From Carnobacterium viridans (GTDB lineage Bacteria > Bacillota > Bacilli > Lactobacillales > Carnobacteriaceae), in NCBI RefSeq assembly GCF_900102725.1, contig NZ_FNJW01000008.1, positions 806,001 to 870,000 of the forward strand: DNA of 64,000 nt. The letters run 5' to 3'. The notes under the pieces were generated by a model. That model was not told where the DNA came from. It did no database searches and saw only the letters and a list, made by a program, of their open reading frames with translations. Position numbers and translations under genes: made by a program. Of the stretch, positions 53,201 through 61,550 are shown piece by piece (the first letter of the stretch is position 1; every line of letters starts with the position of its first letter).

Positions 53201-54970
53201 TTAGACCCTAACTTCTTCTTTCTCTTCATCATATTCTAAAGCTTTTGTTCCTTGGTCTCCGGAACTGACTCGAACGACATTTTCAACATTGTAGACAAAA
53301 ATTTTCCCATCTCCAACAGTACCCGTATATAGCGCTTTTCGAGCTGTTTCTATAACCAAAGAAACTGGAATACTGCTAACCACTACTTCTAATCTTATCT
53401 TAGGAAGCAAATCTGCTTCGATTTCAACTCCTCTATAATAAGCTGTTTGGCCTTTTTGAAGGCCATATCCTTGTACTTTTGTTACTGTCATACCTGTGAT
53501 ACCAACACCATTTAAAGATTTTTTCAAATTTTCAAATTTAGACTCATTTGTTATAATGTCCACTTTCATTAAACGAGTCTCTTCCTTTTCACCAGATGTA
53601 AAAGGTTGCTTTACCTGTTGATGAATGTCAACTGTTTCACGACTCTCTTCCTCATCGATAGCAAGAGGTCCTACACCTGAAAAGGCTAATTCAAGTTCTG
53701 GACTTTCAAATTTTAATCCTTCGAATAGAGGTTTTTGGCCAAACGGAACCGTTACAAAGTCACCATAGCTTGATTCTAATCCGTGTTCTGAAATATCCAT
53801 CCCTGCAATTTCTTCTTCTTCTGTTACTCGTAACCCAATTGTCTTATCAACAAGTTTAAACGTAATGAACATAGTAATCGTTACCCATGCTACGACGGCA
53901 ATAACTCCTAATAATTGAACACCTAAGAGGCTAACACCTCCGCCATAAAGTAGACCATCGTCAGTCGCAAAAACGCCTACTAAAATCGTTCCTAAAGCAC
54001 CCGAAATTCCATGTACTCCAAAAGCACCAACTGGATCATCAATTTTAGCCTTTTTTTCGACAAATTCTATTCCATAGACTAACGCAATAGAAGAAATTGC
54101 TCCTATTGCTACAGCTCCAAATGGTGAAACTATTGCACATCCAGCTGTAATCCCTACTAAACCAGCTAGCGAACCATTTAGCGTCATAGAAATATCTGGT
54201 TTTCCGTATTTTGTCCATGTAATCACCATAGCAACTAAGGTAGCCGTTACTGCAGATAAATTTGTATTTAAAAAGATCGTCCCAATAAGAGCTAATGTTT
54301 CGTCACCCGTGGCAGAGACCGTTGAAGCACCGTTAAATCCAAACCAAGCAAACCAAAGAATGAAAACGCCTAAGGCTCCTAATGTTAGACTATGTCCTGG
54401 AATAGCTTTTGCTTTTCCATCATTGTCGTATTTTCCAATTCTAGCCCCAACAAGTTTTGCTCCGATTAGAGCTGTTACTCCACCAACCATATGAACAGCT
54501 GTCGAACCAGCAAAATCGACAAATCCTAATTGTGCTAACCATCCTCCACCCCAAATCCAATGTCCTGAAATAGGATAAACAACTGTAGAAATAACCAACG
54601 TGTAAACTAGGTATGCACTAAATTTTGTTCTTTCTGCCATTGAGCCAGAAACAATCGTTGCGGCAGTTGCAGCAAAGACCGTTTGAAACATTAAAAATAC
54701 ATATCCAGGTATAGTGGTGTCATAATTGCCTTGTACAAATAAATCCGGTGTTCCAAATAACCCAGCTATACTGGGACCAAACATTACTCCAAAACCAATA
54801 ATCCAGTACATTAAAGATCCTAATACAAAATCCATCAAATTTTTCATGATAATATTACCAGCATTTTTTGCTCTAGTAAATCCCGTTTCAACCATTGCAA
54901 AACCTGCTTGCATAAAAAACACTAAAACTGTTCCAATAAGAACCCATAACGTATCCACAGATGAAAACAT
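53201..54970 (-). CDS. Ammonium transporter fused to a PII signalling domain
   Basis: 589 residues. Residues 1-400 are a complete Amt channel with eleven helices and the twin histidines in TAVHMVGG and GVHGISG. A linker of about 65 residues follows. From about residue 470 on comes a full PII (GlnB/GlnK) domain: MKVDIITN, T-loop QGYGLQKGQTAYYRGVEIEADLLPK with the tyrosine equivalent to Y51, and the signature TGTVGDGKIFVYNVENVVRV. In most bacteria the two are separate adjacent genes. GGAGG seven bases before the ATG at 54970 sets the start (the frame opens at 55009). No glutamine synthetase or GlnD gene is nearby. Confidence 0.94.
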   Translation of the reverse strand: MFSSVDTLWVLIGTVLVFFMQAGFAMVETGFTRAKNAGNIIMKNLMDFVLGSLMYWIIGFGVMFGPSIAGLFGTPDLFVQGNYDTTIPGYVFLMFQTVFAATAATIVSGSMAERTKFSAYLVYTLVISTVVYPISGHWIWGGGWLAQLGFVDFAGSTAVHMVGGVTALIGAKLVGARIGKYDNDGKAKAIPGHSLTLGALGVFILWFAWFGFNGASTVSATGDETLALIGTIFLNTNLSAVTATLVAMVITWTKYGKPDISMTLNGSLAGLVGITAGCAIVSPFGAVAIGAISSIALVYGIEFVEKKAKIDDPVGAFGVHGISGALGTILVGVFATDDGLLYGGGVSLLGVQLLGVIAVVAWVTITMFITFKLVDKTIGLRVTEEEEIAGMDISEHGLESSYGDFVTVPFGQKPLFEGLKFESPELELAFSGVGPLAIDEEESRETVDIHQQVKQPFTSGEKEETRLMKVDIITNESKFENLKKSLNGVGITGMTVTKVQGYGLQKGQTAYYRGVEIEADLLPKIRLEVVVSSIPVSLVIETARKALYTGTVGDGKIFVYNVENVVRVSSGDQGTKALEYDEEKEEVRV

Positions 54971-55057
54971 ATTCTTACCTCCTTTTTTATATGTTATAAA
55001 ATCTAACACTAAAGAAAGGTTTAAACAAGCTTTTTAAGTTTAAATGAAAAATTAACC

Positions 55058-57824: not shown

Positions 57825-57868
57825 AAAAGACAGAAAGTTCAACTTTACACTGAACTTTCTGTCTTTTT
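57825..57868. terminator. Terminator after the M23 hydrolase gene
   Basis: AAAAGACAGAAAGTTCA (57825-57841) pairs perfectly with 57851-57867 around ACTTTACAC, with T-runs on both strands. It can also end the leftward ECF transcript after repeat copy F. Confidence 0.85.
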
Positions 57869-58126
57869 GACACTTCGTTAAATAGTGTTGATAGAAGAAA
57901 ATAAAATTTCTTCTGGAATAGACGGGATTTGCTTGTGGAGAGCCATGGAATCGTCTGAAGTCTGTAGTCTTCAGAGCTTTCAAGCCTTAAACAAAGCGTA
58001 ATCGCCAACGCGCCAACGCTTTGTAATTCGCATTGAATTCAATGCATGGCTACAAGCAAACCCTATTCCTCCAGAATTTTTGTGTCATTAATTTAACTAA
58101 GCTATCAACACTAAAAGTATAGAGCC
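57869..58126 (-). repeat. Dispersed quasi-palindromic element, copy F (258 bp, inverted orientation)
   Basis: Read on the minus strand: GGCTCTATACTTTTAGTGTT, closing stem GGGTTTGCTTGT-AGCCATG with CATGGC-TCTCC-ACAAGCAAATCCC, arm 1 GCATT...AATGC, arm 2 ACAAAGCG (complement of 58017-58024) with CGCTTTGT, arm 3 TCTGAAG...CTTCAGA, and an outer end whose complement reads TAGTGTTGATAG, a perfect match to the other end. It lies between the ECF S-component stop at 58134 and the terminator at 57825-57868. Confidence 0.9.
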
Positions 58127-58133
58127 TTCTTTT

Positions 58134-58685
58134 TTACTTCCAATCACCATTGGAGTAATACTTGTTAAGAAACTTTTTTAATAAAGGAAATAAAATTGGT
58201 GCTAGAATCAAATAAAATCCACTATTTCCTACTGCGTGCATGGTATCAAAAGGAATACCCGAAGCATAATAAATCCAAAAATTTTGAATGCCAAAAAAGG
58301 GAGCTTGGACTAGTGAAATAACGAATCCGTATAAATAACCTGTAAATCCCGCATAGAAAACCATCAAGACAAAAGGAATTTTTTTTAATATCGGTTTGAT
58401 CACTAGTCCAGTAACCAAGACCACTACAAAGAATGATAAAATTTGAGCAATTGTCCAAACACCCATTCCAAGCGTCATATTGGATAAAAGAATCGACAAT
58501 ACCGCTACAATTAGGGCATCACTTATTCCTAATGTTAACGTTAAAATAATTAAGATAACCGTTACTGGCTGGACATTCGGCAAGAACTGGAGCAACTGAC
58601 GACTAACTTGGCAAAGTGCCGTGAGAAAGGCAAGTAAGGTTATTCTTTGAATGGATAGTTTTCCAGCACTTTTATTGTGAAGCAT
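58134..58685 (-). CDS. ECF transporter S component, probably for cobalamin
   Basis: 183 residues, five to six helices, with the N-terminal IQRITLLAFLTALCQVSR-type S-component start and GFYLILAPILFPLLKKFL at the end. S components bind the vitamin and dock on a shared EcfAA'T module, which is not in this window. The substrate is inferred from operon partners (DUF4430 lipoprotein and PduO adenosyltransferase). ATG overlaps the DUF4430 stop by 14 bases, so coupling replaces a clear ribosome site. Confidence 0.84.
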   Translation of the reverse strand: MLHNKSAGKLSIQRITLLAFLTALCQVSRQLLQFLPNVQPVTVILIILTLTLGISDALIVAVLSILLSNMTLGMGVWTIAQILSFFVVVLVTGLVIKPILKKIPFVLMVFYAGFTGYLYGFVISLVQAPFFGIQNFWIYYASGIPFDTMHAVGNSGFYLILAPILFPLLKKFLNKYYSNGDWK

Positions 58686-59091
58686 TTAGAAACCACTTCA
58701 CTTGATCTCCATCTTGTAACTCGTATTCGGCAGCTCCTACAGTTGGATTTGTATTGTTTACTTCGTACATCCAGTACTTCCCTGCTTTTTCGTCTTGTTT
58801 CATTCCTTCAATAGACGTAATAAAACCGCCTTCTTCAACTACTTCATATTCTTTTTTAAGGGCTTCTAAGACCGTAGTGCCCTCGGATACTTCTAATTTT
58901 TTTGTGGCAGTGTCAACTTCTTTTTCGTCTTCTTCTAATACAATATCAATAGAAAGTGTTTCATTTACCTGACTTTCTACTAAAGAAGTGCTTTTTGCAG
59001 CAGAAGAGTCTGATTCTTGTCTAGCCGTTTCTCCACAGGCTACTAAACTAAGGGCTGTTACCCCTATAAGTGCTAATTTAATTAGTTTCAT
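58672..59091 (-). CDS. DUF4430 (transcobalamin-like) lipoprotein
   Basis: 139 residues. Lipobox LSLVAC gives a lipidated cysteine at residue 19, so it is displayed on the outer face of the membrane. The C-terminal 100 residues fit the DUF4430 domain, related to the C-terminal domain of human intrinsic factor/transcobalamin: TVLEALKKEYEVVEEGGFITSIEG and KYWMYEVNNTNPTVGAAEYELQDGDQVKWFLN. It likely captures a corrinoid and hands it to the S component just downstream. GGAGG precedes the ATG at 59091. Confidence 0.86.
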   Translation of the reverse strand: MKLIKLALIGVTALSLVACGETARQESDSSAAKSTSLVESQVNETLSIDIVLEEDEKEVDTATKKLEVSEGTTVLEALKKEYEVVEEGGFITSIEGMKQDEKAGKYWMYEVNNTNPTVGAAEYELQDGDQVKWFLNASQ

Positions 59092-59135
59092 CTTATTTAT
59101 TCCTCCAATTATCGAATAACGTTACTCACTTTTTT

Positions 59136-59720
59136 TTAATTTAAATCCTCTTTTTTTAATTCAGGGTGGAAAACTTTTCCTCCTCTTTCATATAAAATTT
59201 CTTTTACGTTGTAGCGGTTATTGACCGCTCTAGCAACAGCGAAAAAATAATCAGATAATCGATTCATATAAACTGCTACATATTGATTCACCGTTTCTCC
59301 AAACCCTAGACTAACGATAGATCTTTCTGTTCTTCTAACAACTGTTCGTGCCATATGTAAAAGACTAGCTGTCGGATGTCCACCTGGTAACACAAATGAT
59401 AAAATCTCAGGAGCTTTATCGGCATAACCATCAATACTCATTTCTAAGTTTTGCACCATTTCTTTTGTTACTTTATAGGTTCCTTTCCCATGGGGAGTAG
59501 CTAAGTCTGTTCCGCAATCAAATAGATTCTGCTGGATTTCAATAAGTTCTCCTTTTAACGATGAATCTCTTTCTTCTAATTGGCTCACAATATATCCGAT
59601 CAATGAATTCAGTTCATCCATTGTTCCATAGGCATCCACCCGATTTGCGTCTTTTCTTACCTTCTCGCCGCCAATTAAACTTGTATACCCTTTATCGCCC
59701 GTCTTTGTATAAAGTTGCAC
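59136..59720 (-). CDS. Cob(I)yrinic acid a,c-diamide adenosyltransferase (PduO/MMAB type)
   Basis: Transfers the 5'-deoxyadenosyl group of ATP to cob(I)alamin. 194 residues; KTGDKGYTSLIGGEKVRK (ATP site), VRRTERS and VYMNRLSDYFFAVAR are family signatures. The frame opens at 59747, but GGGAGG upstream of GTG 59720 decides the start. First gene of the pduO-DUF4430-ECF S operon; no cobalamin riboswitch is evident in the roughly 90 bases upstream. Confidence 0.92.
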   Translation of the reverse strand: MQLYTKTGDKGYTSLIGGEKVRKDANRVDAYGTMDELNSLIGYIVSQLEERDSSLKGELIEIQQNLFDCGTDLATPHGKGTYKVTKEMVQNLEMSIDGYADKAPEILSFVLPGGHPTASLLHMARTVVRRTERSIVSLGFGETVNQYVAVYMNRLSDYFFAVARAVNNRYNVKEILYERGGKVFHPELKKEDLN

Positions 59721-59807
59721 AAAAATCCCCCTCCCATTTAGTTGCATCTGTTTAAAACCACTATATATCAGATGGATTTATTTTTCAACCACAACATGTA
59801 GTGGTAA

Positions 59808-59844
59808 CAAAAAAAGATTGAGTTTAATAACTCAATCTTTTTTA
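59808..59844. terminator. Terminator of the CAP-domain gene region
   Basis: AAAAAAGATTGAG (59811-59823) pairs with CTCAATCTTTTTT around an eight-base loop; T-runs on both strands. It separates the CAP gene from the pduO operon. Confidence 0.85.
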
Positions 59845-59876
59845 CTATTCATCTGATGGATTTATGCATAATTCAC

Positions 59877-60773: not shown

Positions 60774-61550
60774 TTGAAAAGTTACCAAACACTTTTATTT
60801 GATGTAGATGATACACTGCTTGATTTCAAAGCAGCTGAAAATTATGCTTTACAAAAATTGTTTAGCGAACACAATGTTGTCTTAACAGATGATATTAAAC
60901 AATTTTATCAAGAAATGAACCAAAAGTTATGGTCTTCTTTTGAAAAAGGAGAGCTTGAACGGGAAGAATTATTGCATACTCGTTTTTCAATTTTGTTTAA
61001 AAAAATTGGGTTAACTTTAGATGGCGTTCATCTAGATAACTTATATAGAGAATATCTAGAAGAAAGTGCGGTGCTGATTGATGGCGCGACATCTTTACTT
61101 CAAAAACTAGCCAAACAGTATGACCTTTATGTGGTTACGAATGGTGTTGCACGTACACAGTTTATCCGTCTAAACAACTCAAATCTGAGCACTTATTTTA
61201 AAGATATTTTTGTTTCTGAAGAAATTGGCTATCAAAAACCGATGAAAGAATTTTTTAATCACGTTTTCGAAAAAATCCCTCATTGTTCTGCGGATAAGAC
61301 ATTAATCATTGGAGATTCTTTAACTTCTGATATTCAAGGTGGAATCAATGCCGGGATCGATACATGTTGGTTTAATCCTAAAGGACCTATAAATACAACA
61401 CTTCTTCCAACTTATGAGATTAACCGACTACAAACATTAGAAAATTTACTTTTAACACCTAATTCTCCAGTGGAAACACCTAATTCTCCAGTGGAAACAC
61501 CTAATTCTCCAGTGGAAACACCTAATACACATTCTGTATTAACTTTTTAA
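60774..61550 (+). CDS. HAD-superfamily phosphatase of the YjjG/YfnB type
   Basis: 258 residues. HAD motif I is DVDDT (residues 10-14), motif II VVTNG, motif III the lysine in GYQKP, and motif IV GDSLTSDIQGG. The YjjG group hydrolyses non-canonical pyrimidine nucleotides. The start is the TTG at 60774, eight bases after GGGGG. The C-terminus is unusual: three copies of a seven-residue unit (TPNSPVE) encoded by perfect 21-bp tandem repeats, absent from the usual family. Repeat element G begins immediately after the stop codon. Confidence 0.88.
   Translation: MKSYQTLLFDVDDTLLDFKAAENYALQKLFSEHNVVLTDDIKQFYQEMNQKLWSSFEKGELEREELLHTRFSILFKKIGLTLDGVHLDNLYREYLEESAVLIDGATSLLQKLAKQYDLYVVTNGVARTQFIRLNNSNLSTYFKDIFVSEEIGYQKPMKEFFNHVFEKIPHCSADKTLIIGDSLTSDIQGGINAGIDTCWFNPKGPINTTLLPTYEINRLQTLENLLLTPNSPVETPNSPVETPNSPVETPNTHSVLTF
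61455..61526 (+). repeat. Three perfect 21-bp tandem repeats at the 3' end of the HAD gene
   Basis: Units at 61455-61475, 61476-61496 and 61497-61517 are identical (ACACCTAATTCTCCAGTGGA plus A), with a partial fourth to 61526. They keep frame, so copy-number change would alter only the tail length. Confidence 0.95.

Follow-up and report, generated by a model that had tools for sequence, protein, structure and literature searches.

A probable cobalamin-salvage operon of Carnobacterium viridans pairs a transcobalamin-like DUF4430 lipoprotein with a CbrT-type ECF S component

Introduction

CbrT of Lactobacillus delbrueckii is a proven carrier that transports vitamin B12 and cobinamide; it binds B12 at ~9 nM and cobinamide at ~36 nM, about fourfold more weakly (PMC5997447). 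The ECF-CbrT transporter of this species needs no lipoprotein to move B12, whether in E. coli or in liposomes, and hemin neither competes with B12 nor inhibits it (PMC5997447). Transcobalamin-like surface proteins encoded with CbiO/CbiQ-type ECF genes were predicted in 2007 to scavenge B12, and such domains were predicted to occur in bacteria without B12 synthesis (Burroughs et al., PMC1796856). The transcobalamin-like clade is marked by a hairpin that follows the helix and contacts the base of B12, and a base-stacking position has been described (PMC1796856). The isolated beta domain of human transcobalamin binds CNCbl and cobinamide in crystals; the two domains of the complete protein join only once B12 is added (PMC5599065). 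A proteomics table of 2023 lists a lactobacillus protein as an "additional lipoprotein component of putative cobalamin ECF transporter" (PMC9963975).

Here we analysed a 64,000-nucleotide stretch of the Carnobacterium viridans genome (contig NZ_FNJW01000008.1, positions 806,001 to 870,000; hereafter the window), in which genes for a PduO-type adenosyltransferase, a DUF4430 lipoprotein and a CbrT-type S component lie together. The best explanation for this locus, with a probability of roughly 0.8, is a cobalamin-salvage operon whose DUF4430 lipoprotein is a cobalamin-binding accessory of CbrT and may hand the vitamin over to it.

Results

Organization of the operon

All three genes lie on the minus strand (Table 1). 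The preliminary description had them overlapping or nearly so, and they are indeed near-contiguous, with a 44-nt gap between pduO and the DUF4430 gene and a 14-nt overlap between the DUF4430 gene and cbrT. A longer pduO reading frame with an ATG at 59747 is less likely because a GGGAGGGGG ribosome site precedes the GTG at 59720. The sequence GGAGG is located 10 nt 5′ of the ATG of the lipoprotein gene. The sigma-70 promoter candidate upstream of pduO carries little weight, since such sites are no commoner in the region than in shuffled sequences. Further upstream, an AT-rich hairpin would part the CAP-domain gene from the operon; the terminator scan, for which this hairpin is too AT-rich, does not call it. 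The stem-loop 3′ of cbrT is common to cbrT and the convergent M23 peptidase gene.

Table 1. Features of the operon in the window and of the larger related operons
Feature	Position	Strand	Description
pduO	59136..59720	-	PduO-type cob(I)alamin adenosyltransferase, 194 aa, GTG start; TIGR00636, PF01923
DUF4430 lipoprotein gene	58672..59091	-	139 aa; PF14478 profile
cbrT	58134..58685	-	cobalamin-type ECF S component by homology to PDB 6fnp_A, 183 aa
Overlap of DUF4430 stop and cbrT start	58672..58685	-	14 nt
pduO-DUF4430 gap	59092..59135	-	44 nt
Possible sigma-70 promoter upstream of pduO	59760..59788	-	TTGAAA-17-TATAGT; 10/12 consensus positions
AT-rich hairpin, then T run	59809..59845	-	read directly in the sequence
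Terminator-like stem-loop 3′ of cbrT	57825..57867	-	19 pairs; count of such stem-loops not above shuffles
Complete toroid/DUF4430 ECF operons	L179:2779-14223, L181:3322-14946, L184:2045-9802, L182:19-10832		related Lactobacillales

A dispersed, MITE-like repeat of ~240 nt was seen at four places in the window (57880-58120, 61796-61562, 9691-9443 and 24523-24294), with partial copies elsewhere. The copies are 86-88% identical; their ends (AGTGTTGATAG...CTATCAACACT) are near-palindromic, and they are predicted to fold strongly (-82 to -87 kcal/mol). A pair of them, in opposite orientation, brackets pduO-DUF4430-cbrT together with the CAP and HAD neighbours. A HAD hydrolase carries C-terminal SPVETPN repeats, encoded at 61454-61526 by a perfect 21-nt tandem repeat of 3.5 copies. 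The window also encodes an ammonium transporter with a C-terminally fused P-II regulatory domain (53201-55009, minus strand; PF00909 + PF00543).

The S component is a CbrT homolog

A search of the PDB with the S component returned only 6fnp_A (L. delbrueckii CbrT) at E ≤ 1 (single-sequence phmmer, E 7.3e-30). A profile of the 29-member CbrT family likewise had 6fnp_A as the sole chain at E ≤ 1 (E 5.5e-44), and the window CbrT is 41% identical to 6fnp over 155 aligned columns. The FolT NCBIfam model reached no more than 13.5 bits (cut-off, 60), and with CbrT as the sole PDB relative, a specificity for biotin, riboflavin or folate was rejected. The PDB match and the FolT score below cut-off thus place the S component in the cobalamin (CbrT) clade and outside the biotin, riboflavin and folate clades, in agreement with the cobalamin role first proposed for it. 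The same genome encodes a complete common ECF module (EcfA, EcfA′ and EcfT; locus L065). Homology identifies the window CbrT as the predicted B12-binding membrane subunit, partnered with this common EcfA-EcfA′-EcfT motor of the cell.

No natural DUF4430-CbrT fusion occurred among the fetched loci. One CbrT reading frame of 376 aa (L148:2096-3226) has a second half that by eye resembles an acyl-CoA thioesterase, a downstream enzyme, and is possibly a gene fusion.

The DUF4430 lipoprotein has the fold of a transcobalamin beta domain

The lipoprotein matched PF14478 at 77.9 bits (curated cut-off, 23.8). It consists of a signal peptide with lipobox LVAC and Cys19, an acidic/serine linker at about residues 20-44, and a transcobalamin-like beta-grasp domain at residues 45-139. 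The preliminary description called it a surface protein; it is a membrane-anchored lipoprotein, but with a linker of ~25 residues and no wall anchor, so that "surface" is an overstatement. Cys19, W107, N112, A120 and D129 were invariant in 42 DUF4430 sequences.

The AlphaFold2 model was confident over residues 45-139, with pLDDT blocks mostly of 88-97 over 51-139. All 19 Foldseek matches at E ≤ 0.001 were mammalian transcobalamin, haptocorrin or intrinsic factor, or 3u7z, and the best unrelated match was at E 0.01. VIA-align gave Z values of 12.9-14.4 for the beta domains of the three carriers and for 3u7z, with haptocorrin at the top; the next fold had a Z of 9.1. 3u7z is a bacterial protein of unknown function, which the DUF4430 family profile matched at E 9.5e-6; the same profile matched haptocorrin weakly (E 0.15). 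Single-sequence phmmer with the lipoprotein matched no B12 carrier, and the relation is visible only by profile and fold comparison. The model, Foldseek and VIA-align results agree with the earlier proposal that the fold is related to that of transcobalamin and intrinsic factor, specifically to their beta domain.

In the model, helix 74-81 is followed by a beta-hairpin with strands 84-87 and 90-94. Position 90 was hydrophobic (F, L or M) in 40 of the 42 sequences and is a candidate for the base-stacking residue. Profile, beta-grasp fold and hairpin with its conserved hydrophobic residue all assign the protein to the transcobalamin-like (DUF4430/SLBB) clade. It does not have the complete transcobalamin/intrinsic factor architecture: its 139 aa form one domain and include no alpha-alpha toroid, which was seen only in larger proteins of relatives. 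Because the lone human beta domain binds its ligand, half a transcobalamin is expected to bind B12, with an affinity below that of the whole. The beta-grasp fold is common, as Z 7-9 matches to ubiquitin-like sulfur carriers show, and a common fold does not prove a common ligand for the lipoprotein. A search of the open-access literature found no binding data or bench experiment on a lone bacterial DUF4430 protein.

DUF4430 and CbrT co-occur and are adjacent

Among 395 Lactobacillales genomes, 244 had CbrT, 250 had DUF4430 and 238 had both, giving an odds ratio of 459 that is inflated by phylogenetic relatedness; the adjacency, Listeria and regulation results do not rest on this ratio alone. 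Only 6 of the 395 genomes had CbrT without DUF4430. The opposite was seen in 12 of the 395, some of which have a longer DUF4430 protein in another neighbourhood. Of the 89 genomes in which matches to both were listed, 71 had the DUF4430 gene immediately 5′ of cbrT and in the same orientation. Adjacency was also counted in 80 named loci that had been fetched by CbrT alone. By script, DUF4430 adjoined cbrT on the same strand in 65 of them; reading of the other rows added 3 same-strand overlaps and 2 adjoining genes on the opposite strand, so that the two were neighbours in 70/80. The gene order is reversed in some loci, with DUF4430 and cbrT still adjacent, and in most related loci the two genes overlap, by anything from a few nt to about 50. 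Such linkage greatly exceeds chance, and the co-occurrence check called for at the outset was strongly positive for this pair.

In 25 Listeria genomes, the pair and B12 synthesis excluded each other (p = 5e-6). The 15 genomes with the B12-synthesis gene cbiD had neither CbrT nor DUF4430; both were found in 9 of the 10 without cbiD.

DUF4430 proteins of ~180-270 aa were also observed in a conserved neighbourhood without CbrT (L158, L160-L167 and L177), and several of them have a second, weak DUF4430-like stretch.

B12 riboswitches and larger relatives

A B12 riboswitch was found in 20 of 60 named CbrT loci scanned, always upstream of DUF4430 as the first gene. Pisciglobus, Atopococcus, Desemzia and Lacticigenium have it in the space that separates pduO from DUF4430. 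In other Carnobacteriaceae, an AdoCbl riboswitch with a terminator fills the pduO-DUF4430 gap (Rfam AdoCbl matches in L070-L074), and in a sister genus (L008, L009) this gap measures 208-212 nt and keeps the riboswitch core. The window operon had no B12 riboswitch at the gathering or a relaxed threshold, and there was no riboswitch core in its 44-nt gap or in the gaps of two congeners (47 and 50 nt). Within the window's genus, the gap has shrunk to 44-50 nt, with loss of the riboswitch.

Four loci (L179, L181, L182 and L184) contain complete ECF operons with EcfT, a double EcfA and a CbrT-like S component having extra N-terminal segments. These operons encode long secreted proteins (up to 2231 aa) with an alpha-alpha toroid plus, in most, DUF4430, as well as further DUF4430 proteins. 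The alpha-alpha toroid is the fold class of the alpha domain of transcobalamin. A B12 riboswitch is located upstream of the large operons in L179, L181 and L184. Operons of this type are the bacterial counterpart of a whole transcobalamin, as foreseen in PMC1796856. Because relatives carry these larger toroid and DUF4430 ECF operons, the window holds the smallest version of a family of systems.

PduO and use of imported B12

PduO scored 204.8 bits against the TIGR00636 equivalog (cut-off, 108.45) and 192 bits against PF01923. It is the loose member of the trio, above cut-off in 142 of the 395 Lactobacillales genomes as compared with 244 for CbrT and 250 for DUF4430; many genomes have the DUF4430-CbrT pair without PduO. 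The C. viridans genome encodes the AdoCbl-dependent class II ribonucleotide reductase NrdJ (1571 bits), along with two class Ib reductases, and also QueG. Two other candidate B12 consumers were sought in this genome, EutB (ethanolamine lyase) and a B12-binding-domain enzyme such as MetH; neither was found, NrdJ and QueG being found instead. QueG or PduO was present in 242 of the 244 CbrT-bearing Lactobacillales genomes, and where PduO is missing, as in many lactic acid bacteria, QueG may be the chief user of B12. In 12 of the 80 named CbrT loci, queG was observed near cbrT, mostly on the opposite strand (e.g. Tetragenococcus, L099).

Discussion

From the CbrT homology, the fold, the co-occurrence, the Listeria exclusion and the riboswitches, we infer an operon for B12 salvage, in which cobalamin is very probably captured by the lipoprotein for CbrT. 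The evidence strongly supports a service of the DUF4430 lipoprotein in CbrT-based B12 uptake. On comparative grounds it is very probably an extracytoplasmic cobalamin-binding accessory of CbrT, a single lipid-tethered beta domain of the transcobalamin type. The preliminary description was right about the cobalamin S component, the beta-domain fold and the co-occurrence. Its claim of a new mixed design did not hold: the combination of lipoprotein and ECF genes had been predicted in 2007 (PMC1796856) and annotated in the 2023 table (PMC9963975). The idea of an S component that needs a lipoprotein was not borne out either, since L. delbrueckii ECF-CbrT transports B12 without one (PMC5997447). The present analysis adds a quantified pairing of DUF4430 with the sole S-component family of proven B12 transport, together with the mutual exclusion with cbiD in Listeria, the position of the riboswitches and the minimal form that has a beta domain only.

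Other roles for the lipoprotein were considered. It could be dedicated to cobinamide or to other corrinoids for which CbrT is a poorer carrier, and so widen the range of usable precursors. Haptocorrin, the top match by Z, binds cobinamide tightly (PMC5599065), and the affinity of CbrT for cobinamide is about fourfold below that for B12 (PMC5997447); however, no cobinamide-salvage genes were seen in the operon neighbourhood, and we consider this specialization unlikely. Somewhat less likely again is a lipoprotein that binds no B12 and supports CbrT structurally, in its insertion, its reorientation or its finding of the motor. The frequent gene overlap, which suggests coupled and similar expression, and the ability of CbrT to bind B12 at about 9 nM by itself (PMC5997447) would fit such a role. 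On the other hand, the lipoprotein has the fold of a B12 carrier and keeps the ligand-contacting hairpin, and DUF4430 is joined to alpha-alpha toroids in large secreted proteins that B12 riboswitches control and that are unlikely to act as chaperones.

The pair might also import heme or another tetrapyrrole, with the transcobalamin-like fold turned to a different ring. The heme-uptake operon of L. sakei (LhaSTA) reportedly includes extracellular proteins, so a DUF4430-type protein could figure in that system. An ECF-like heme-uptake system is reported for L. sakei, as cited in PMC7299338 and PMC7872071. This is the most improbable of the alternatives, given that hemin is no competitor of B12 for ECF-CbrT (PMC5997447), that the gene neighbour is PduO, that B12 riboswitches control the pair in 20/60 relatives and the toroid and DUF4430 ECF operons in L179, L181 and L184, and that cbiD-bearing Listeria species are without the pair.

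As a cobalamin-capturing accessory of CbrT, the lipoprotein is probably not obligatory and at most a helper, because L. delbrueckii ECF-CbrT works without one (PMC5997447). It should matter mainly at very low B12, since that transporter works alone in E. coli and in liposomes. The lipoprotein would bind B12 weakly and reversibly at the outer face of the membrane, raising its local concentration, and would then hand it to CbrT, perhaps via a short-lived sandwich, with CbrT standing where transcobalamin has its alpha domain. The motor would pull the loaded CbrT over, and B12 would be released inside. By homology, PduO would convert the imported corrinoid to adenosylcobalamin, the cofactor of NrdJ; QueG would use cobalamin. 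A bolder version, which we put forward tentatively and think will rather fail than hold, is that lipoprotein and CbrT form one composite B12 site, a split transcobalamin with cobalamin held between the beta domain and the outer face of CbrT. If so, B12 itself would trigger both assembly and hand-over, and the membrane carrier would be one half of a transcobalamin.

S components are thought to bind their substrates unaided; the pairing described here says that, for the largest vitamin, bacteria usually retain a capture protein. The pairing is tight, often riboswitch-controlled and often overlapping, and is found in a large part of the lactic acid bacteria as well as in some bacilli. Through it, the B12 carriers of animals are linked to a bacterial uptake system, and a likely function can be given to a widespread domain that is still named as one of "unknown function" (DUF4430).

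The closest described system, ECF-CbrT of L. delbrueckii (PDB 6fnp; PMC5997447), shares with C. viridans a homologous S component, a linked pduO, a common ECF module and, in the genome, NrdJ as a consumer of B12. The genes of L. delbrueckii form an nrdJ-cbrS-cbrT-pduO cluster (PMC5997447), whereas the Carnobacterium nrdJ is at another site in the genome and cbrT is overlapped by the gene for a DUF4430 lipoprotein. No lipoprotein is described in the L. delbrueckii study, and the transporter examined there functions on its own. With the transcobalamin-like SLBB clade (Burroughs et al. 2007, PMC1796856; Pfam DUF4430), the window protein shares the secreted beta-grasp domain, the hairpin insert and the ECF neighbours. 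Bearers of that clade are B12-importing Gram-positive bacteria, and the domain was predicted there to scavenge B12. The operons stressed in that study include genes for CbiO and CbiQ and in many cases an alpha-alpha toroid (PMC1796856), whereas the window encodes only a single beta domain, and its CbrT has to rely on an ECF module from another part of the genome. Human transcobalamin, haptocorrin and intrinsic factor have the same beta-domain fold (Z 12.9-14.4); unlike them, the window lipoprotein has no alpha domain, is lipid-anchored, and would work with a bacterial transporter subunit instead of an endocytic receptor. The BtuG-type lipoproteins of gut Bacteroides have a fold unrelated to that of the DUF4430 lipoprotein. 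They belong to a Gram-negative outer-membrane system, and the likeness is one of function only: in both cases, a B12-capturing lipoprotein would stand ahead of a membrane transporter (PMC6143338).
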